Origin: a virus
IMG/VR virus record: IMGVR_UViG_3300029448_000024
Coordinates: 1 to 44,955 of that record
Reading direction: 5' to 3' (one strand)
Length of the DNA: 44,955 bases
Shown here: in pieces, positions 1,264 to 26,575 of the stretch
Layout: each line of letters starts with the position of its first letter
Numbering within the stretch: the first letter of the stretch is position 1
Made by a program: the position numbers and the translations under genes
The notes under the pieces: generated by a model
What the model was told of the DNA's origin: nothing
The model's input: the letters and a program-made list of their open reading frames with translations, nothing else
The model's database searches: none

Positions 1264-2427
1264 TTATTCACTCTCTAGGACTTCCCTAGATTGTGAGTTA
1301 TACCTCGGGTCCGATATGGCCTCTAGTATGCTTTGCACTGTCATCTCCACGATCTCTTGATGAGTGTGGGGAGCCAGCTCACAACCTATGCCTAAAGCAT
1401 TGCTCATAGACTTAGGTTGTCTAATGTATTTAATATTGACAAATGTAGTGAAAAAACTGTTGTCACTATATACGTCGATAAAGTTTTCCTCCATCGTGTA
1501 CTTAATGCTATCATAAGTACTCGTGTTAAATGGGTCACCTAATAGTGCGAGTATGTCGTCGTGTTGTGAGTACGACATCTTTGCTCTCTGGTTCTCTCCA
1601 GGGACTGCGCTGTTACCGTCGTACGCTCTGTAGGTAACCTGACTTGTTGCGGGAAGTGTAAAGTCTACTTCTGTATAAGGGTTGTCACCTCCAAGTGGGT
1701 TGTACCACACTCCAGTCAAAGTGCCTGTAACCAAAGGACCAGTAAACAAGTAGATAATCTCGTTCGAGTGTGCCGTCGGAGTTACCTCGTGGGATACCAG
1801 CGAGTTGATATCGTATGTAGGGAACAGGCTAGAGTTGTCCGTAGGGAAGTCAGGGTCAGATGCAACAATAGCTATGTCCCCGATTAGGTCAGAGGCATAG
1901 TTGTTCTCATCCATTAAGTCTTGGGTCTCTAACCCAACACTTGCTGCAAGTCCGTCTGCACTAACTTGTATAATAGGTGTCCCGTTTACGTTAACCGACA
2001 GTAAGATGTACCCCTCTGTTGGAGGAGTGAGGGATAACTTTCCTACGCTGTAGGTGTACGTTGAAGTCTGTGGGGTTACGGTCTGCGCGCAGTCGTAGAA
2101 CCCGTCATGATACGCATTAACTAGGAACATGTAGTCGTTAGGGAGAGGTGCCCTATCTACAAAGAACCCAGTGATAGACGGCCCGTAGTAGAAGCACTTG
2201 AGTCGTGCCTCCACTACTAGGGCTCGTAAATCGTCTATCCTTTTCTGAGATTGCTCAAAGCCATCACGGTACTTATTACCCGTTGGGGAATAGCGTTGTT
2301 TGATGAACCGATGCATTGCATTGTTCAACTCGTGATCTATCTCCTGTGGGAGAAGGTTGTCAACCTGGAAGGATGCAATCTTTTGCACCCCAAGGTTAAC
2401 TGCTATGTGCATCTCTTCTATGGTCAT
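1264..2427 (-). CDS. Putative head-tail connector / adaptor (ring) protein
   Basis: The 387-aa protein starts with a helical segment (LLPQEIDHELNNAMHRFIKQ, about 25-44) followed by a long mixed alpha/beta body. This N-terminal pattern recalls proteins coded just after the capsid gene in phages of Bacteroidota, which act as head-completion or ring proteins on the portal. It overlaps the upstream gene by 4 bp, so the two are translationally coupled. No enzymatic motif is visible. The structural role is inferred from position and length. Confidence 0.6.
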   Translation of the reverse strand: MTIEEMHIAVNLGVQKIASFQVDNLLPQEIDHELNNAMHRFIKQRYSPTGNKYRDGFEQSQKRIDDLRALVVEARLKCFYYGPSITGFFVDRAPLPNDYMFLVNAYHDGFYDCAQTVTPQTSTYTYSVGKLSLTPPTEGYILLSVNVNGTPIIQVSADGLAASVGLETQDLMDENNYASDLIGDIAIVASDPDFPTDNSSLFPTYDINSLVSHEVTPTAHSNEIIYLFTGPLVTGTLTGVWYNPLGGDNPYTEVDFTLPATSQVTYRAYDGNSAVPGENQRAKMSYSQHDDILALLGDPFNTSTYDSIKYTMEENFIDVYSDNSFFTTFVNIKYIRQPKSMSNALGIGCELAPHTHQEIVEMTVQSILEAISDPRYNSQSREVLESE

Positions 2428-3230
2428 TTAACCTCTTTGAGTTGAGCTCTCATGGCGTTTACTGCGCCAGAGTTCTTCTTGTTGTTAAAGTAAATGATGG
2501 CATCTGTCATGTTCTCTCCGATGGTTTCGTCACCGTAGATCACCTGGTTTCCAATTGTGCGGAGCACTCCCTTCTCTACCATCTCTTCTAATTCTGCACG
2601 AACGTCGAGATTTTTGTCAGTACTGTGCTTAAGGAAAGCCGCCGGCTTATCGTTCTTAATGCTATACATCTGGTTCTCAACTTCCATGTCGGTCATCTTA
2701 TCAGGGGTAGAACCCTTAACAAGGACACGCAACAGCCTGCGCATCTTCTCAAAGTCAGACGAGATCTTGATGAACTCTTTGTCTGCTTCTTTCTTGACCT
2801 TCACCTCAGCATTTTTCTTAAGCAAGTCACGTTGCGGATCGTAGATGTAGAAACGTTTCTGGCCATCAGCCTTCATCTGGGATTCAGACTCTGCAACTTG
2901 TCTATGCTTGAGGCACCACTTGTAGGTGATGTAATCCATGACATTTTCAGGATTACCTTCCTCATCTGTAGTAATGTCTAGTTCTGCTCCTTCGAACGGA
3001 ACCTTCAATGACATACTGGCCCAAAACTCTTTTTCTTGTTTGGGCCATGCTTCGTGTCCGGGCGGGACATCTAAGATGCGAGACAAGAGTTTGTGGGACT
3101 CTTCTCCTTCTACACCTCGTAATGGTTGCCTACCGATATAGATACTACCGATTGCAACCTTGGCGCCTGCTCTTATCTCTTTAGGTAAGTGATTCAGGAC
3201 TTCTTTTCTGCGGATAAATATTTTGCGCAT
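2424..3230 (-). CDS. Conserved-looking virion-region protein downstream of the capsid gene
   Basis: The 268-aa product has a basic N-terminus (MRKIFIRRKEVLNHLPKEI) and a charged helical middle with many Lys and Glu (about 125-165). A C-terminal segment contains AELEEMVEKGVLRTIGNQVI (about 212-231) and looks like a small helical hairpin. There is no signal peptide or transmembrane helix. It is the first gene after the major capsid protein and is separated from it by a 130-bp gap with a hairpin and a short direct repeat, so it may have its own promoter. A head-completion or internal structural role is likely, but I do not recognise the family. Confidence 0.55.
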   Translation of the reverse strand: MRKIFIRRKEVLNHLPKEIRAGAKVAIGSIYIGRQPLRGVEGEESHKLLSRILDVPPGHEAWPKQEKEFWASMSLKVPFEGAELDITTDEEGNPENVMDYITYKWCLKHRQVAESESQMKADGQKRFYIYDPQRDLLKKNAEVKVKKEADKEFIKISSDFEKMRRLLRVLVKGSTPDKMTDMEVENQMYSIKNDKPAAFLKHSTDKNLDVRAELEEMVEKGVLRTIGNQVIYGDETIGENMTDAIIYFNNKKNSGAVNAMRAQLKEVK

Positions 3231-10113: not shown

Positions 10114-12075
10114 TTATCGATAGTTCCTGTCGAACCATTCGTTCTGGGACATATCGTTGATGGTTTCTACAACCTCTTTATTATATAGCTCTCTAGTGTG
10201 ATACATGCCCACCATAAACGCCATTACACGGTCGAAGTTACCCTTGTGGTTAAATTTAATTAATTCTTGCAATAATCCAATGTCATAAATCTCATGCAAG
10301 TTAAGCCTTATATTCCCATCTTCGTCACTGCTTCTTGGGGATATTAACCAATCTCTTATATAGAGCTCTCCCTGACGCTTACGTTGCTCTGTCATGTGCA
10401 TGCCGTACTGACGTCGTACGTTCCTGCTGCGTAGCTCTTTTTTGTCCAGCATTTCAAACTCTTCCTGCAGCTTGTGTAGTTTACGGTAGCGCTTAGCGTA
10501 TGCTATCAACTCGCCCCGATCATTCTCAAACCCAATCTTTGCATTGTAGTAATCAGCCAGCATGAATAGGTTTCTGTTGTATTCATCCTGTGTCTGTGGC
10601 CTGCCTATATAGCTAGCCACAATCATATCGTCTGGCTTGGAGAGATTGTTAGGACGCTTGATTACATACGCAGCACCAAGCGACTGGTTGCTTGTAGACT
10701 TGCTCTGTGCATACGGGTCATGGCAGATAACGTACAAGTTGTGTGGTGTATTTCCGTCTTGTGTCTTCCAAGGGTTCTGGTATATAACCACACCTCCTGT
10801 CAAGTCATCGTCTTTCCTGTGCGGGAACTTTGTGATTGGCTTGACTGATGGATCTGGGCGGAAGTCTACTTGCGGTCCGTTGTAATACAAGACTCCTGCT
10901 GTGCCTTCCTTCTCCAGATTGTGTGCCTTGACACGATTGTATTGCTCCTTGAGCGACGTGACATCGAATACGTTAATTGTTGTCTGTAGCGTCGCTTCTT
11001 GTGGGGTGAACGGGTGCTCCGCCACGTACTGATCAAGTGCCTTGGCGTCGTTCGCCTTCTTTTTATTGACTCTAGCAGCCTCTTCAAACTCTTTTGCATC
11101 TTCAATTAGTGAATTACCGTGTTCATCCATGAACCCATCTAGGTTCTGGTAGATAGGGACGAAGTATCCGCAGGTTGTTCCTACAGCTCCTGCATCCCAT
11201 TCGTTCTCAAACGCCATACAGTTGTAGGCTTCTGGGTGGTAGAATAGTTCTTCTAGTGATGCAAAGCCATGCCCTTCTTCACCACCTGTACCGAAGGCTA
11301 TCATAGTACCAAGGGTTTTAGAGCCCTGTTTCATCGTAGGCATAGCTATCTCCCATGCAGTAAGTAGCCCCGAGAACGAGCCTGCCTCCTCAAAGAAGAT
11401 AAGTTCCCCCGCCTTACCACGTACTTTGTGGGGATTGTCTTTGAGTGATACCCCAATGATCTGGGACTTCATGCCCAGTGCTACGTCAGTTCCATTAACG
11501 CGTTTCTTGTACCCAGCCTGTTTGTGCATCTCCTTGTCGATCAGGCGAGGCTGTGTCCATGCTGTGTTATCGTCTACGAATGAGATAAAGTCCCAGGTTT
11601 TACTAAGCAATCCGTCCCCAGTTAGGTATTCTTTTTGCTCTGCAAACACGAAGTTCTTGGAGTTGCGGATGTGAAAGTAGTTTCGGGCCAGCATTGACCC
11701 CGCTTTGTAGGAATATCCCTTACGTCTGGCTTTTAGCACAGACATATGCTTGTTTTCCTTGCGGCATTGGTCTACTGCGTGGTAGTATTCGTAGTCTCCG
11801 TCGTAGAATGCGGGAAATGTCCGCTCTCTGCGGGCTTGAACCGTCCCGTCTGGGAGAACCTCATCAATTGCACGGTCAATTGGGCAATAGTTGAGATAGA
11901 AATAGTGATATCCCGTGATCCGTACACCATCAAGCTCGAATCCGTACAAACATCTGTTGCGTTCTCTATCCCAGAAGTCGTAATACTCTTTTGTCCCTGC
12001 AAGTGCGTCTGTATAGTAGCCTTGGGCTAAGAATGCAGCGGCTGCAGGGGAAAACCTCTCTGTATTCTTGAACAT
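10114..12075 (-). CDS. terL: Terminase large subunit
   Basis: The 653-aa packaging motor has an N-terminal ATPase and a C-terminal nuclease. The N-terminus carries GYHYFYLNYCPI (55-66), a pattern I associate with terminases of large Bacteroidota phages. A degenerate Walker A lies at about 115-127 (KARRKGYSYKAG), and a Walker B with its catalytic glutamate at about 223-232 (GELIFFEEAG). The RNase H-like nuclease is indicated by Asp453 in YVICHDPYA and the acidic pair in GFENDRGE (about 516-523). It starts one base inside the stop of the 165-aa gene (TAATG), consistent with coupling to a small-subunit-like partner, and is followed by the portal gene. Confidence 0.9.
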   Translation of the reverse strand: MFKNTERFSPAAAAFLAQGYYTDALAGTKEYYDFWDRERNRCLYGFELDGVRITGYHYFYLNYCPIDRAIDEVLPDGTVQARRERTFPAFYDGDYEYYHAVDQCRKENKHMSVLKARRKGYSYKAGSMLARNYFHIRNSKNFVFAEQKEYLTGDGLLSKTWDFISFVDDNTAWTQPRLIDKEMHKQAGYKKRVNGTDVALGMKSQIIGVSLKDNPHKVRGKAGELIFFEEAGSFSGLLTAWEIAMPTMKQGSKTLGTMIAFGTGGEEGHGFASLEELFYHPEAYNCMAFENEWDAGAVGTTCGYFVPIYQNLDGFMDEHGNSLIEDAKEFEEAARVNKKKANDAKALDQYVAEHPFTPQEATLQTTINVFDVTSLKEQYNRVKAHNLEKEGTAGVLYYNGPQVDFRPDPSVKPITKFPHRKDDDLTGGVVIYQNPWKTQDGNTPHNLYVICHDPYAQSKSTSNQSLGAAYVIKRPNNLSKPDDMIVASYIGRPQTQDEYNRNLFMLADYYNAKIGFENDRGELIAYAKRYRKLHKLQEEFEMLDKKELRSRNVRRQYGMHMTEQRKRQGELYIRDWLISPRSSDEDGNIRLNLHEIYDIGLLQELIKFNHKGNFDRVMAFMVGMYHTRELYNKEVVETINDMSQNEWFDRNYR

Positions 12076-21212: not shown

Positions 21213-21518
21213 TGCCGATTAATTAGGACGGTAAAGATACACAATAGTTCTCACCTTCCTTGTCCTCGGTAAGCCTTTTTATAATGCTTTGACTTTTTGT
21301 TTTTGCTGTGCTTGGTTTTGGAGTGCACTCCCGGGCGTGAGATACTTCTCACTACCCGTTCGACTAGTTTGACTTTTGCCATGGTTCAAAGCTAGAAAAA
21401 AATTTGGGGAAAAAAATTTTAGTTGGGGAGTTTTTTCGAACGCGGAATCCTACACAATCCATGACCCCCGCTATGCATCGTCATTGGGGCATCCCCCCTT
21501 CACTCAAATCTTTTACAT
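21213..21518. promoter_or_regulatory. Divergent control region between the leftward and rightward blocks
   Basis: Transcription diverges from here. It contains a perfect 12-bp palindrome GGAGTGCACTCC (21320-21331), a GTGAG/CTCAC hairpin (21337-21352), and two copies of TTTGACTTTTxG (21288-21299 and 21368-21378). AT-rich runs with GGGG blocks (AAAAAAATTTGGGG and a second, similar copy, about 21396-21427) precede the first rightward gene. The two TTTGACTTTT copies may be promoter elements, and the palindrome an operator or origin element. No assay exists to separate these roles; a Bacteroidota-type -7 box was not found with confidence. Confidence 0.45.
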
Positions 21519-21707
21519 ATGGCACAAGCTTTTTCCCCAGAAGAAGTCCGCCGCTCCGACAAGGGAGTAGGCTTTCTTCGCACAGACATCGACCTTACGA
21601 ACCTCACTATCAGCGATAGGTTTGTCTGGGTCAAGCCCGATTCTCCTAAGTACGACTCTGCTCTCAAGCTCGCAGAGGCTATCGAGAAGGCTCAGAAGAA
21701 GACGTAA
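21519..21707 (+). CDS. Hypothetical 62-aa early protein
   Basis: This is the first rightward gene after the divergent control region, and the last 10 codons lie inside a terminator stem. The 62-aa product is charged and mainly helical, with no membrane segment. Its middle has beta-like VGFLRTDIDLTNLTISDRFVWV (about residues 17-38, hydrophobic positions alternating), and a basic helix ends in EKAQKKT. Codon choice is strict (many GAG/CTC/AAG), like that of strongly expressed phage genes. I do not recognise a family. Confidence 0.6.
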   Translation: MAQAFSPEEVRRSDKGVGFLRTDIDLTNLTISDRFVWVKPDSPKYDSALKLAEAIEKAQKKT

Positions 21708-21718
21708 GTCTTCTTTTT
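21694..21718 (+). terminator. Terminator overlapping the end of the 62-aa gene
   Basis: AAGAAGAC (21696-21703) pairs perfectly with GTCTTCTT (21708-21715) around a GTAA loop, followed by a T run to 21718. The stop codon TAA (21705-21707) lies in the loop. This is a textbook intrinsic terminator fused to the coding end; it should stop most early transcription before the noncoding region. Confidence 0.85.
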
Positions 21719-21786
21719 AGGTGGGACTTCTGTAACAGTTTACAGAGGGAGCGAGAGCACACACCAGTGTTCTCCTCCCACTTTTT
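21719..21786 (+). ncRNA. Compact three-way-junction RNA or tandem terminator
   Basis: An 8-bp outer stem (AGGTGGGA 21719-21726 with TCCCACTT 21776-21783, one G-U) encloses two perfect-type hairpins. These are CTGTAA/TTACAG (21730-21735/21740-21745) and GAGAGCAC/GTGTTCTC (21753-21760/21767-21774, one G-U). T residues run to 21786. It could be a stable small RNA end or a second terminator that protects the upstream transcript. Confidence 0.55.
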
Positions 21787-21843
21787 CCCACTTTACGACA
21801 CTCAACAGTTTGGTTCACATACAATTGTATAACATAACTGCTT

Positions 21844-22468
21844 AAGTATGAATAGTTAACAGAGGGGTTCGATTCCCTTCCATACTTCTATACAAATCCT
21901 GACGCTGCAGAGTCAGGTCACCGTGGCTACCCGTACAGTAGCAATCAGTTTGAATAGCATGCAACGATGTCTATTAACTGTGGTCGGTGACAACAAGAAG
22001 GTGAGAATCCTTCTTACGCTTGGTATATGCCGGGGCTCATGTCTATCATACTGATAGCATTAGTGTCTATAGAATATACCATGATAATGGAAGAAGAACA
22101 AGACATCAGGGGCAGTTCAACATCGGCCTCTTAAACCAAAGTAGAATAGACATTGTTGGGCGGGGTGACGACCGCGAGTCACACAGCCGGATCAAGTGAC
22201 CGAGCGACGATAAAGCTTAGATAACTGATCGTCTCGGTGCATGGACGCATGCACTTAAATAAACTTAAACAAGGTGAAGACCAAGGAGTAACAGGGTACC
22301 GCACCTGCCAGTACTAGTAGCAAACCTGACGAGGTAAGCTACGACAGCATTGCGGGCTGAAACGTCAGCTCAGAGACAAAACAAAAACGATTCACACAGT
22401 TAGGTTTAAGCATCATAATGTATGATTTTGGTTAGGGGAGTTATCGTTCTCCCCGTCTCAAAAACTGT
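21844..22468 (+). ncRNA. Large structured noncoding RNA candidate (about 625 nt)
   Basis: No convincing ORF occupies this stretch, yet it holds at least ten clean helices. Examples are CCTGAC/GTCAGG (21898-21917), GTCACCG/CGGTGAC (21917-21923 with 21985-21991), CAGTT/AACTG around a long hairpin (21946-21980), and AAGAAGG/CCTTCTT (21995-22015). Others are GGTATAT/ATATACC (22022-22080), GACGAT/ATCGTC with CCGA/TCGG (22200-22237), GTGCATG/CATGCAC (22237-22254), and a terminal three-way junction ACAGTT/AACTGT (22396-22468) enclosing two 6-bp hairpins. A tRNA-like acceptor/T-arm opens it. Size, phage setting and nearby tRNAs recall GOLLD or ROOL RNAs, but no consensus was compared. The direction is inferred from neighbouring genes. 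Confidence 0.55.
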
Positions 22469-22474
22469 AACGAC

Positions 22475-22570
22475 ATGAAGACACAAGACAGAATAATTAG
22501 ATTCATTGCGCTCGTATTAACAGTTATGTGCCTGCTTTACATGACTGCTTGTTTAACTAATACCACATAG
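22475..22570 (+). CDS. 31-aa membrane or lipoprotein-like peptide
   Basis: An ATG seven bases past the noncoding RNA opens a 31-codon frame, stopping one base before the next gene's ATG (TAGATG). The peptide begins with charged residues, has a hydrophobic core (FIALVLTVMCLLYMTA) and then a cysteine, an arrangement resembling a lipobox (MTA-C). It may be a tiny lipoprotein or a single-span membrane peptide. The tight junction with the next gene supports translation. Confidence 0.45.
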   Translation: MKTQDRIIRFIALVLTVMCLLYMTACLTNTT

Positions 22571-22852
22571 ATGAGAGTTAGAACTTACAACACAAAGAAA
22601 CCTGTGTGGACGGTAGAAGACCTTAATGAATTCGTCCACTATGGAACAACATCTCGAAAGGACCTAGCCAGGTATCTGGAGAGATACAAAGACAAGTTTA
22701 ACGACGGACAGTACATTGTTTGTTACTACAAGTCCATCAAAAACCTTGTCCCCGAATCTGCAGTAACCGTAAAAACTTTTAAATTACAGAGCAAAGTAAA
22801 AGACAAATGGACTACAACAAAAGATTCGATTCGGACTTTGATCGGGAAGTAA
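22571..22852 (+). CDS. Hypothetical 93-aa basic protein
   Basis: The protein is basic and mostly helical at the N-terminal half (VEDLNEFVHYGTTSRKDLAR, about 16-35). A short beta-like middle with Tyr residues (YIVCYYKSI) and a Lys-rich C-terminus follow. No transmembrane helix or metal motif is present. It starts directly at the stop of the preceding small gene and overlaps the next by 46 bp, so it belongs to the early rightward transcript. No family recognised. Confidence 0.5.
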   Translation: MRVRTYNTKKPVWTVEDLNEFVHYGTTSRKDLARYLERYKDKFNDGQYIVCYYKSIKNLVPESAVTVKTFKLQSKVKDKWTTTKDSIRTLIGK

Positions 22853-23763: not shown

Positions 23764-23991
23764 ATGTCATGGATGAAATATCTAGCGTCGTTGGCTGAAG
23801 ACCCAACTGCGCTATCTTCGATGCGTCAGGCATTGCAAACTGCTAGCAAGTACAACTTAGACCATGCTATTTACAATGGTGAGAGCATCACCACAGAGAA
23901 GCTGACGTCTATGATAAAGCTTGTTGAGAAACAACAACGGATTAATGATTCATTATATCGGGACACAAACTACGCTAACGCAGCAGAGTAA
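23764..23991 (+). CDS. Hypothetical 75-aa protein ahead of the polymerase
   Basis: I chose the ATG at 23764 because the frame upstream runs through the terminator stem. The 75-aa product is helical (YLASLAEDPTALSSMRQALQ, about 6-25; LTSMIKLVEKQQRINDSLY, about 47-65), neutral to slightly acidic and without membrane or metal motifs. It overlaps the polymerase start by 47 bp, implying coupled translation. It could be a polymerase cofactor by position; I do not recognise it. Confidence 0.55.
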   Translation: MSWMKYLASLAEDPTALSSMRQALQTASKYNLDHAIYNGESITTEKLTSMIKLVEKQQRINDSLYRDTNYANAAE

Positions 23992-25798
23992 TGGTATTCA
24001 AGCATCATCAATTGAGGCATGCAAAGCATACTGCGAGAGTAAGGCGGTACTGGGTGTTGACACAGAGACTGAGGGCTTTGACTTCACTTGCAAGAAGATG
24101 GTCATGTTCCAGATTGGGGATGAACAAGAACAGTTTGTTATTGACACAAGACACGTATCAATCGAACCGCTTAGAGACGTCCTCGAATCACCGCAAATAA
24201 CTAAGATCTTTCACAATGCAAAGTTTGATTACAAGTTCATCAAGCGTTGGGCCAGCATCGAAGTGCAAAACATTTATGATACCTATCTTACGGAGAGAGT
24301 GCTCAATTGTGGTAAACTCAATTGGGGTTACTCACTATCAAAGTGTTGTGAGCGGTACGCAGGTGTATCTCTGGATAAAGAAGAACGAAACAAGTTCGTC
24401 GGCCTGCAAGGTCAACCGTTCACGCACAATCAAATTACGTATGGGGCTAATGATGTCGTTTACCTCATTCGTATTTGGGAGAAACAACACGCACTACTGG
24501 ATGAAGCTGAACTACATCAGGTTGCCGATCTAGAAAACAAGGCAGTCGTTGTATTCAGTGAGATTGAGTATGAAGGTCTCATGGTGGACAGAGAGCGGTG
24601 GACTGCACTTGCAAAAGATAACCTTGAACTAGCTACTAGCATAGAGTTACAGCTGGACAGAGAGGTTATTGAACACCCAAAGCTGAGTCCACACTATCAT
24701 GTACCTGTGCAACAGGATATGTTCTTGCAGGCAGAGGAGCAGAGAGTGACCAATATCAAGTGGTCATCCCCGTCTCAGATGCTTGCTCTGTTCCAACATC
24801 TAGTCCCCAAGCTAGAAGATGTGAACGGGAAGAACCTGAACAAGCACAAGTACAAGCATCCTATCATCAAAAGCTATATACGTTATAAAGAACTTAGCAA
24901 GTTGGCTAACGCCTACGGCATTAACTTCTTCAACTATGTAAACTGTGATGGTAAGGTGCACACAAACTTCTCTCAGATACTAGATACTGGGAGAGTTTCA
25001 TCCTCTGAACCTAACATGCAGCAGATACCAGCTGATAACAAGTATCGTAACTGTTTTATCTGCCCGGATGGTTGGGTGTTCGTATCTAGTGACTACAGTG
25101 CCCAGGAGCTGAACGTTATCGCTTTCGGGAGCAAAGACCCTGTGTGGTTGGATGCTCTTGAACGTGGTCTCGATCTTCATGGTGTATGTGCAGACCTTGT
25201 CTTCGAAGACAGATGGAGGAATGCAGATGCAGATGAAAGAAAAAAGCTCAGGACACAGATTAAGACTATCAACTTTGGACTGGCCTATGGTATGGGACCA
25301 CACAAGCTGAGTGACACGCTTGGTATCTCTATGCGTGAAGCTGGTGAGCTGATAGACAAGTACTTTACCACGTTCCCAAACATCAAGAAGTTTCTCGAGA
25401 TGCTGGGTCGGTTCGGTAAAATGAATGGGTATATTCGTACGTTCAAACCATTCAAACGCAAACGCTTCTTCGATTACTGGGAGGGTAGAAAGACCCCACC
25501 TAAAGAGCTAGGTATGATTGAGCGTGCCAGCAAGAACACCCCTATTCAGGGTGCATCAGCTGACATGACCAAGCTGGCTCTCATCAACATCCACAACCAC
25601 ATCAAGGACAACAACCTGCAGCAGGACATTAAGATTGTGATGACTGTTCATGACCAGATTGATACTATCTGCAGGGAAGAACTTGCTGAGTCGTGGAAGA
25701 CAACGATGACAGAGATCATGGAAGCAGCAGCGAAGACTATTGTAACTAATGGTCTGCTCAAAGCGGACACTAACATTTCAAAAACATGGGAGAAGTAA
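23945..25798 (+). CDS. polA: Family A DNA polymerase with 3'-5' exonuclease
   Basis: From the preferred ATG at 23945 the protein is 617 aa, the size of a phage family A polymerase without a 5' nuclease. Proofreading motifs: Exo I VDTETEG (Asp39, Glu41), Exo II HNAKFDYKF (Asn91-Asp95), Exo III YGAND (Tyr166, Asp170). Polymerase: DTGRVSSSEPNMQQIP (348-362), motif A SSDYSAQE with Asp383, motif B RTQIKTINFGLAYG (about 436-449), motif C VHD (Asp570). An earlier ATG at 23921 exists but overlaps the preceding gene more. The matching 5' nuclease is a separate gene at 37790. Confidence 0.95.
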   Translation: MIHYIGTQTTLTQQSNGIQASSIEACKAYCESKAVLGVDTETEGFDFTCKKMVMFQIGDEQEQFVIDTRHVSIEPLRDVLESPQITKIFHNAKFDYKFIKRWASIEVQNIYDTYLTERVLNCGKLNWGYSLSKCCERYAGVSLDKEERNKFVGLQGQPFTHNQITYGANDVVYLIRIWEKQHALLDEAELHQVADLENKAVVVFSEIEYEGLMVDRERWTALAKDNLELATSIELQLDREVIEHPKLSPHYHVPVQQDMFLQAEEQRVTNIKWSSPSQMLALFQHLVPKLEDVNGKNLNKHKYKHPIIKSYIRYKELSKLANAYGINFFNYVNCDGKVHTNFSQILDTGRVSSSEPNMQQIPADNKYRNCFICPDGWVFVSSDYSAQELNVIAFGSKDPVWLDALERGLDLHGVCADLVFEDRWRNADADERKKLRTQIKTINFGLAYGMGPHKLSDTLGISMREAGELIDKYFTTFPNIKKFLEMLGRFGKMNGYIRTFKPFKRKRFFDYWEGRKTPPKELGMIERASKNTPIQGASADMTKLALINIHNHIKDNNLQQDIKIVMTVHDQIDTICREELAESWKTTMTEIMEAAAKTIVTNGLLKADTNISKTWEK

Positions 25799-26011: not shown

Positions 26012-26316
26012 TAAGTATAGAAATGGAGGATGAGCTGGGACCTGATTACTTTATTGAGGTAACTATGGAGGCAGAAGTTATTGCTGTCGACCATGGTATA
26101 GGCTCTTATGAGTATTGGGGGAGTAAAGGCTATCATACAGATATCCGTCTTGAGTTAAACAAACCTCCTTATATAGATGAGGTTAGACTGTTTGATGAAG
26201 ACGGGGAAACTGTAGAGATAGGACCAGAGCAAACACGCCTACTCGAAGGGTGGATTGCTCAAAATGCTAGTGAGATTGAGGACAAACTCCTCGAGAAAGC
26301 AAGCATAGACTGTTAG
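26002..26316 (+). CDS. Acidic 104-aa hypothetical protein
   Basis: The ATG at 26002 (MELVSIEMEDELG) is preferred because it keeps only a 10-bp overlap with the small membrane peptide. The acidic protein is predicted to mix beta strands (IEVTMEAEVIAVDHG, about 20-34; YHTDIRLEL, about 45-53) with a C-terminal helix (LEGWIAQNASEIEDKLLEK, about 81-99). The last base of its TAG stop is the first base of the downstream tRNA-Leu. No family recognised. Confidence 0.5.
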   Translation: MELVSIEMEDELGPDYFIEVTMEAEVIAVDHGIGSYEYWGSKGYHTDIRLELNKPPYIDEVRLFDEDGETVEIGPEQTRLLEGWIAQNASEIEDKLLEKASIDC

Positions 26317-26401
26317 GCTAAGTGGTGGAATTGGTAGACACGACAGACTTAAACTCTGTTGATCCGAATGGGTCGTACCGGTTCGAGTCCGGTCTTAGCT
26401 A
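26316..26401 (+). tRNA. tRNA-Leu (TAA)
   Basis: The acceptor stem GGCTAAG pairs with CTTAGCT with a G-U first pair. A D-arm with GTGG...AATTGGTAGACAC, anticodon TAA (within ACTTAAACT), a long variable arm as in class II tRNAs, and T-arm ACCGG-TTCGAGT-CCGGT follow. No CCA is encoded. The first base coincides with the last base of the preceding stop codon. Confidence 0.9.
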
Positions 26402-26404
26402 CTC

Positions 26405-26477
26405 GCGCTTGTAGCTCAGTGGTTAGAGCAGCGGACTCATAATCCGTCGGTCGTAGGTTCAAGTCCTACCAGGCGCA
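26405..26477 (+). tRNA. tRNA with CAT anticodon (Met or Ile2)
   Basis: The acceptor GCGCTTG pairs with CAGGCGC, followed by TAGCTCAGTGGTTAGAGCA. The anticodon loop is CTCATAA with anticodon CAT, and the T-arm is GTAGG-TTCAAGT-CCTAC. It resembles E. coli ileX-type tRNA-Ile2 (lysidine-modified, reads AUA) in its D-arm and variable region (GGTCG) more than elongator Met, but this cannot be settled by eye. No CCA is encoded. Confidence 0.9.
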
Positions 26478-26480
26478 CAC

Positions 26481-26554
26481 GCTCCCGTAGCACAACAGGA
26501 TAGTGCAACAGCCTTCTAAGCTGTAGGTTGTGGGTTCGAGTCCCGCCGGGAGTA
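26481..26554 (+). tRNA. tRNA-Arg (TCT)
   Basis: The acceptor GCTCCCG pairs with CGGGAGT with a G-U first pair. The anticodon stem ACAGC/GCTGT encloses loop CTTCTAA with anticodon TCT, and the T-arm is GTGGG-TTCGAGT-CCCGC. The tRNA reads AGA/AGG Arg codons. No CCA is encoded; it is spaced 3 nt from the preceding tRNA. Confidence 0.9.
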
Positions 26555-26575
26555 CAAACACAAACACAAATAACT

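Follow-up and report, generated by a model that had tools for sequence, protein, structure and literature searches.

To our knowledge, only few families of large noncoding RNAs are known from phages, and their function is open. For RNase P, a minihelix consisting of an acceptor stem and a T-arm is already a minimal substrate, and RNase Z cuts on the 3' side of such a minihelix. Minihelices of this kind, the t-elements, are found in plant mitochondria. They are likewise found in Haloferax volcanii, where tRNase Z cleaves a t-element located before the 5S rRNA and thereby generates the 5' end of this rRNA (PMC4326828). Theta (HDV-like) ribozymes of gut phages are attached to tRNA ends and were proposed to process them (PMC10879173). 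The large phage RNAs GOLLD and ROOL are encoded near tRNA islands and form RNA-only cages, with 14 subunits for GOLLD; the 5' part of GOLLD is less conserved, and its linker may hold tRNAs (PMC12286853). An earlier note on the DNA analyzed here had proposed that positions 21844-22468 encode one structured RNA of about 625 nt, possibly of the GOLLD/ROOL class. In the open-access literature, to which the search was confined, no description of RNA arrays such as the one found at this locus was obtained.

The analyzed stretch of DNA (hereafter the window) comprises 44,955 of the 64,998 bases of the IMG/VR record IMGVR_UViG_3300029448_000024; related contigs are given L numbers. The phage is referred to as crAss-like because its head genes match the PHROG major head, portal and terminase families and the nearest annotated relatives of its DNA polymerase (about 30% identity) are found in crAss-like and other phages. 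The array is flanked on its left by minus-strand genes and a single plus-strand ORF and on its right by a plus-strand operon of small ORFs, a 194-aa ORF and the DNA polymerase (Table 1). Lipoprotein-like ORFs occupy the place of the first of these small ORFs in L012, L017 and L018. As had been pointed out before, the phage encodes tRNAs, the three genes lying downstream of the polymerase gene. In the polymerase gene of L007, an in-frame TGA is present at position 10430 where relatives have Trp or Phe, which might reflect recoding, mutation or a sequencing error.

Table 1. Features of the array and its surroundings. Positions refer to the window unless a related contig (L number) is named.
Feature	Position	Strand	Remarks
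62-aa ORF	21519-21707	+	left of the array
Element P	21695-21834	+	upstream of the array; hairpin GGGAG..CTCCC and T-tract, then promoter-like block
tRNA-like element (TLE)	21844-21887	+	7-bp acceptor stem AAGTATG/CATACTT; T-arm AGGGG-TTCGATT-CCCTT
Block A	21892-22088	+	A1 21893-21985, A2 21986-22090; 87-91% identical in L012, L018, L029
43-codon GTG ORF in block A	21923-22054	+	open in window, L012, L018, L029
Block B	22102-22345	+	80-90% identical in L012, L018, L029, L041
Module C	22346-22468	+	hairpins GGGCTGA/TCAGCTC and GGGGAG/CTCCCC; leader of the next small ORF
31-aa ORF	22475-22570	+	start of lipoprotein type; follows the array as its first ORF; outside the RNA
93-aa ORF	starts 22571	+	
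70-aa ORF	starts 22807	+	
194-aa ORF	starts 23061	+	
DNA polymerase	23921-25798	+	
tRNA-Leu, tRNA-Met, tRNA-Arg	26316-26555		4 kb downstream of the array; called by ARAGORN, tRNAs recovered by Rfam search
Module X1	L012 7166-7322; L018 1666-1840; L029 8628-8791		
Module X1	L052 1728-1842 and 1231-1417; L041 2440-2545 and 3178-3318	-	
Module with closing stem like TGATAACACAGC/GCTGTGTTATCA	L018 2146-2352; L020 8421-8616; L019 4351-4530; L015 2040-2184		ends and interior vary
Further copies of this module	L072 8567-8700; L007 7566-7730, 7839-7940; L089 8814-8921		
Intergenic module of about 150 nt	L029 9046-9200; L089 8501-8655; L019 4539-4685; L086 1117-1262		70-84% identical
Module with TGACTG..CAATTCAGTC and hairpin GAGAGTGT..ACACTCTC	L041 2942-3175 (-); L054 2975-3095 (-); L070 1026-1250; L079 7815-7939		

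Element P, located upstream of the array, contains a terminator-like hairpin with T-tract (21747-21787, read by eye), followed by a conserved block at about 21810-21834 that is presumably a promoter. A position between a strong terminator and a 31-aa gene had been described previously; ORF, hairpin and T-tract were indeed found, but the hairpin, which has a bulged stem, is absent from a simple terminator scan. Matches to element P were obtained with nhmmer/blastn in L002, L012, L015, L016, L017, L018, L019, L020, L022, L023 and L029. Element P forms the head of a variable locus in about a dozen related contigs.

The interval 21844-22468 has a predicted minimum free energy of -192.3 kcal/mol, compared with -160.7 +/- 6.5 kcal/mol for dinucleotide shuffles (z -4.9), and many of the helices that had been read from it are kept between phages. 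The stretch from A to B alone folds moderately better than the script's shuffles, which were first-order Markov copies (z about -2.3). Comparison with related contigs, however, splits the interval into a TLE, block A, block B and module C. As judged by this comparison, the region is indeed structured but consists of four separate units, and not of one 625-nt RNA as had been proposed. A and B occur together in four contigs (window, L012, L018 and L029), and B is found in five, the additional one being L041. The spacer between the aligned blocks measures 13 nt in the window, about 370 nt in L012 and about 740 nt in L018; further RNA modules (X1 and X2) fill the spacers of L012 and L018, and those of L018 and L029 also hold small ORFs. 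Copies of module C with 91-93% identity are present in L011 and L024; both contigs lack A and B, and their C lies behind another TLE.

The earlier note had missed a tRNA-like minihelix at the 5' edge of the region. In this TLE, a 12-nt linker replaces the D and anticodon arms, and neither ARAGORN nor an Rfam search called positions 21844-21887 as tRNA or tmRNA. The pattern yielded 0 matches when 20 Markov copies were scanned in place of the window. In the orthologues of L012, L029 and L052, 100% of the cells are paired, including one compensatory pair. A scan for T-arms with consensus loop combined with a 7-bp acceptor stem, from which sites called as tRNA were left out, detected 29 distinct non-tRNA matches in 98 loci (1.41 Mb), compared with 1, 4, 3, 0 and 2 matches in five shuffled copies. 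The strand of the polymerase gene carries 27 of the 29, the other two being located in L052 and L054, loci that are stored reversed; a few intragenic matches (L009 at 9492, L020 and L021) are probably due to chance. The TLEs vary in acceptor sequence, and their linkers range from 11 to 102 nt. A TLE lies directly 5' of A in the window and L029, directly 5' of X1 in L052 and 3' of B in L012 and L018, where the one of L018 was read by eye since the scan had missed it because of one T-stem mismatch. No TLE was found 3' of B in the window, and neither a TLE nor any of A, B, X1 and X2 is present in the last 20 kb of the phage record. The TLEs of L080 and L084 resemble tRNA-Leu with a changed anticodon arm, and genes similar to tRNA-Leu, whose anticodon arm is unusual or missing and which ARAGORN did not call, are present at 12822-12954 of L080, 5422-5536 of L084 and 11960-12051 of L009.

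As in t-elements, the TLEs consist of an acceptor stem and a T-arm with T-loop and have no decoding arm, and like the t-element in the 5S rRNA leader of H. volcanii the window TLE is placed directly upstream of a structured RNA. In contrast to that system, the TLEs are phage-borne putative cleavage sites that occur many times in the related genomes beside variable RNA modules. The tRNA-like domain of tmRNA (RF00023) also has an acceptor stem and a T-arm but no anticodon arm; the window TLE differs from it by the 12 nt between acceptor strand and T-arm and has no mRNA-like domain and no tag ORF, and ARAGORN found no tmRNA. With theta ribozymes the array shares that a phage RNA is attached to tRNA or tRNA-like ends, while the Rfam search of the window returned nothing HDV-like. 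In L041, a full-length, sub-threshold match to the HDV-like ribozyme drz-agam-1 (24.8 bits, gathering 37, E 0.03) lies where the RNA array ends (2367-2443, minus strand).

A 13-bp pairing between A(AACGATGTCTATT) and B(AATAGACATTGTT) shows no change among the window, L012, L018 and L029, although the spacers separating the two blocks range from 13 nt to more than 700 nt. By a hand estimate, about 0.005 equally long helices with at most one G-U pair would occur between A and B by chance. Since the pairing is invariant, it is consistent with a long-range helix, but no proof of it. The 7-bp long-range pairing that had been reported earlier (GTCACCG/CGGTGAC) is present as well, with an invariant 5-bp core (CACCG/CGGTG). 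At the 3' end of B, several pairings compete, such as the hairpin GTAG..CTAC with the long-range pairing CGTGGC/GCTACG. The long-range pairing between the blocks suggests that A and B fold together into a single RNA of roughly 450 nt.

The covariation test used a structure derived only from the window and permuted the column patterns among columns sharing the window base. Across the homologues, 33 paired cells were broken where 49.4 were expected (p = 0.009). In block A, 10 compensatory cells (1.0 expected, p = 0.0002) and four compensatory pairs (0.55 expected, p = 0.0008) were obtained, whereas compensatory cells in block B alone were not significant (p = 0.19) and only its pairing-preserving changes exceeded expectation (p = 0.02). 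The compensatory changes of A fall in three helices; in the named helices of this block 97.6% of the cells are paired and three pairs changed on both sides. Its paired cells and covariation score were reached in 9 of 500 shuffles, and the helices collapse once the partner strand is slid. Compensatory changes of the kind that the earlier note had proposed to look for are present in A. The alignment is thin, with four contigs for A and B together, five for B and identities of 80-91%; at four rows of about 90% identity, it backs the helices in A and carries little weight for B.

Searches with single modules (blastn) revealed that the same pieces recur in differing orders and neighbourhoods; besides A, B and C, the relatives carry several 100-200-nt modules that reassort in this way. 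A2 is present with 97.7% identity over 88 nt in L070, although the polymerase of this contig is 68% identical. Conversely, L011, whose polymerase is 98% identical to that of the window, has no TLE-A-B and carries a DUF2828-type gene, another TLE and C instead; the naming of this gene rests on a near-copy in L024. The array without A-B in L011 and the A2 copy in L070 indicate that the array is accessory and is exchanged faster than the surrounding genes. DUF2828/DUF7788 genes are found in the place of A-B upstream of position 1268 in L011 and at 6990-8483 in L024, the latter between two TLEs.

Module X1, which is absent from the window, is present in seven copies in five contigs, two each in L052 and L041. 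It corresponds to a branched RNA of 120-140 nt with eight compensatory pairs over the seven copies, a value reached in 0 of 500 shuffles. X2 occurs alone in L054. A module of 140-207 nt closed by TGATAACA..TGTTATCA was found in L018, L020, L019, L015, L002 and L072, and further recurring modules are listed in Table 1. Pattern scans of viral contigs each returned two to four true relatives in addition to chance matches, and L027, L028, L030, L055 and L056 were rejected as such chance matches. In annotated phages no relatives were detected (3-4% covered, as by chance), and a pattern scan of genome contigs gave chance 18-mers only. A covariance model of A2 found no further copies in 1.27 Mb, and that of X1 recovered only its own seven copies.

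On balance, we lean slightly towards the view that the region serves the replication operon as its 5' leader and encodes an A+B RNA of about 450 nt behind a t-element-like minihelix, with ends set by tRNA-type processing. Transcription of the operon would start at the promoter-like block in element P. The minihelix would then be recognised by tRNA-processing enzymes of the host, RNase P cutting before and RNase Z after it, and the RNase Z cut at about 21888 would set the 5' end of a presumably stable A-B RNA. In L012 and L018, the second TLE after B would set the 3' end. With no TLE following B, the 3' end is undefined in the window, and the A-B RNA could stay within the mRNA leader there. The RNA may act as a decoy, a scaffold or an anti-defence RNA against a host or rival target. 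Since it is accessory and exchangeable, this target likely varies between hosts and does not belong to core replication; our guess would be a host or rival factor that differs from host to host.

The main rival, which we regard as rather unlikely but serious, is an untranslated leader of the polymerase operon in which A, B and C act in cis on stability, translation or attenuation and so control the small ORFs and replication genes downstream, the TLE does no more than trim or protect the 5' end of the mRNA, and no free RNA is formed. The location of the array between the promoter-like element and the first ORF would fit such a leader, as would module C, which directly precedes an ORF in three phages, and the lack of a TLE after B in the window. 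However, the modules precede different genes in different phages and recur in other order and company, and in L018 and L029 ORFs interrupt the RNA.

Block A could also be a gene for a 43-aa peptide starting with GTG, its structure being incidental, but this appears improbable. The frame is open in four phages, 14 synonymous stand against 13 non-synonymous changes, and the variable columns lean to third codon positions (6/3/10); this bias, though, does not reach significance (p = 0.075). The A2 copy of L070 has lost 1 nt in a hairpin loop, which disrupts the frame but leaves the hairpin intact, compensatory pairs in A exceed expectation, and block B has no conserved reading frame among the relatives. 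The ORF is thus probably not a gene, and no long conserved ORF was detected in the interval, for which the earlier note had reported no credible ORF.

We consider it very unlikely that the region belongs, as a new member or a distant relative, to the ornate, cage-forming GOLLD (RF02032) and ROOL (RF03087) RNAs. It shares with them that a large structured RNA is encoded by a phage that also encodes tRNAs, and a variable linker between two conserved parts; the linker of GOLLD sometimes carries tRNAs (PMC12286853). Nevertheless, no Rfam match, GOLLD and ROOL included, was obtained at E up to 10 for positions 21300-22700, and the longer versions of L012 and L041 gave only weak, irrelevant sub-threshold matches. 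In 14 related records the GOLLD model found nothing at E up to 1 and the ROOL model found nothing, although the control genomes also remained without a GOLLD match and no positive control matched ROOL. GOLLD has a universally conserved 3' region and a less conserved 5' region; here, B is present in five contigs, A in four and A2 alone in L070. At about 450 nt, the window version falls short of the 574 positions of the ROOL model, and the tRNA genes are 4 kb away and not adjacent. The region also stands apart in its exchangeable modules, its variable length and its link to anticodon-less minihelices; for neither family does PMC12286853 describe module swapping or such minihelices. Given that neither model matched, membership was rejected and the region was filed as a large structured phage RNA outside both families, for which GOLLD and ROOL are at most an analogy. 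A decayed tRNA or tmRNA gene followed by an unrelated spacer that folds by chance is just as unlikely: the TLE retains acceptor and T-arm, that of L012 weakly matches the tmRNA model (13.4 bits, gathering 47) and some relatives have degenerate tRNA-Leu-like genes, but the stems of the TLE are perfect with one compensatory change, TLEs recur with unrelated acceptor sequences beside conserved RNA modules, and block A shows compensatory change.

Having no Rfam match but compensatory changes among its homologues, the region apparently represents, as had been suspected, an undescribed structured phage RNA, located at the start of a DNA-replication operon. Here shorter RNA modules combine, split and move between phages, beside putative tRNA-like processing signals. 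Block A, which recurs with spacers between 13 nt and more than 700 nt and in part also on its own, provides a natural mutational series, and the mixing of modules suggests that phages trade folded RNAs like small genes. As a more tentative extension, these crAss-like phages might keep in their early operon a modular RNA array (A/B, C, X1, X2 and others) that is cut apart at TLEs by host tRNA enzymes and whose modules are exchanged like accessory genes, an RNA counterpart of an anti-defence locus. Punctuation of transcripts by tRNAs is a principle known from organelles. If host RNase P and RNase Z do cut the TLEs, this would be a phage case of tRNA punctuation and would explain how structured RNAs are freed from an operon without a phage processing enzyme.
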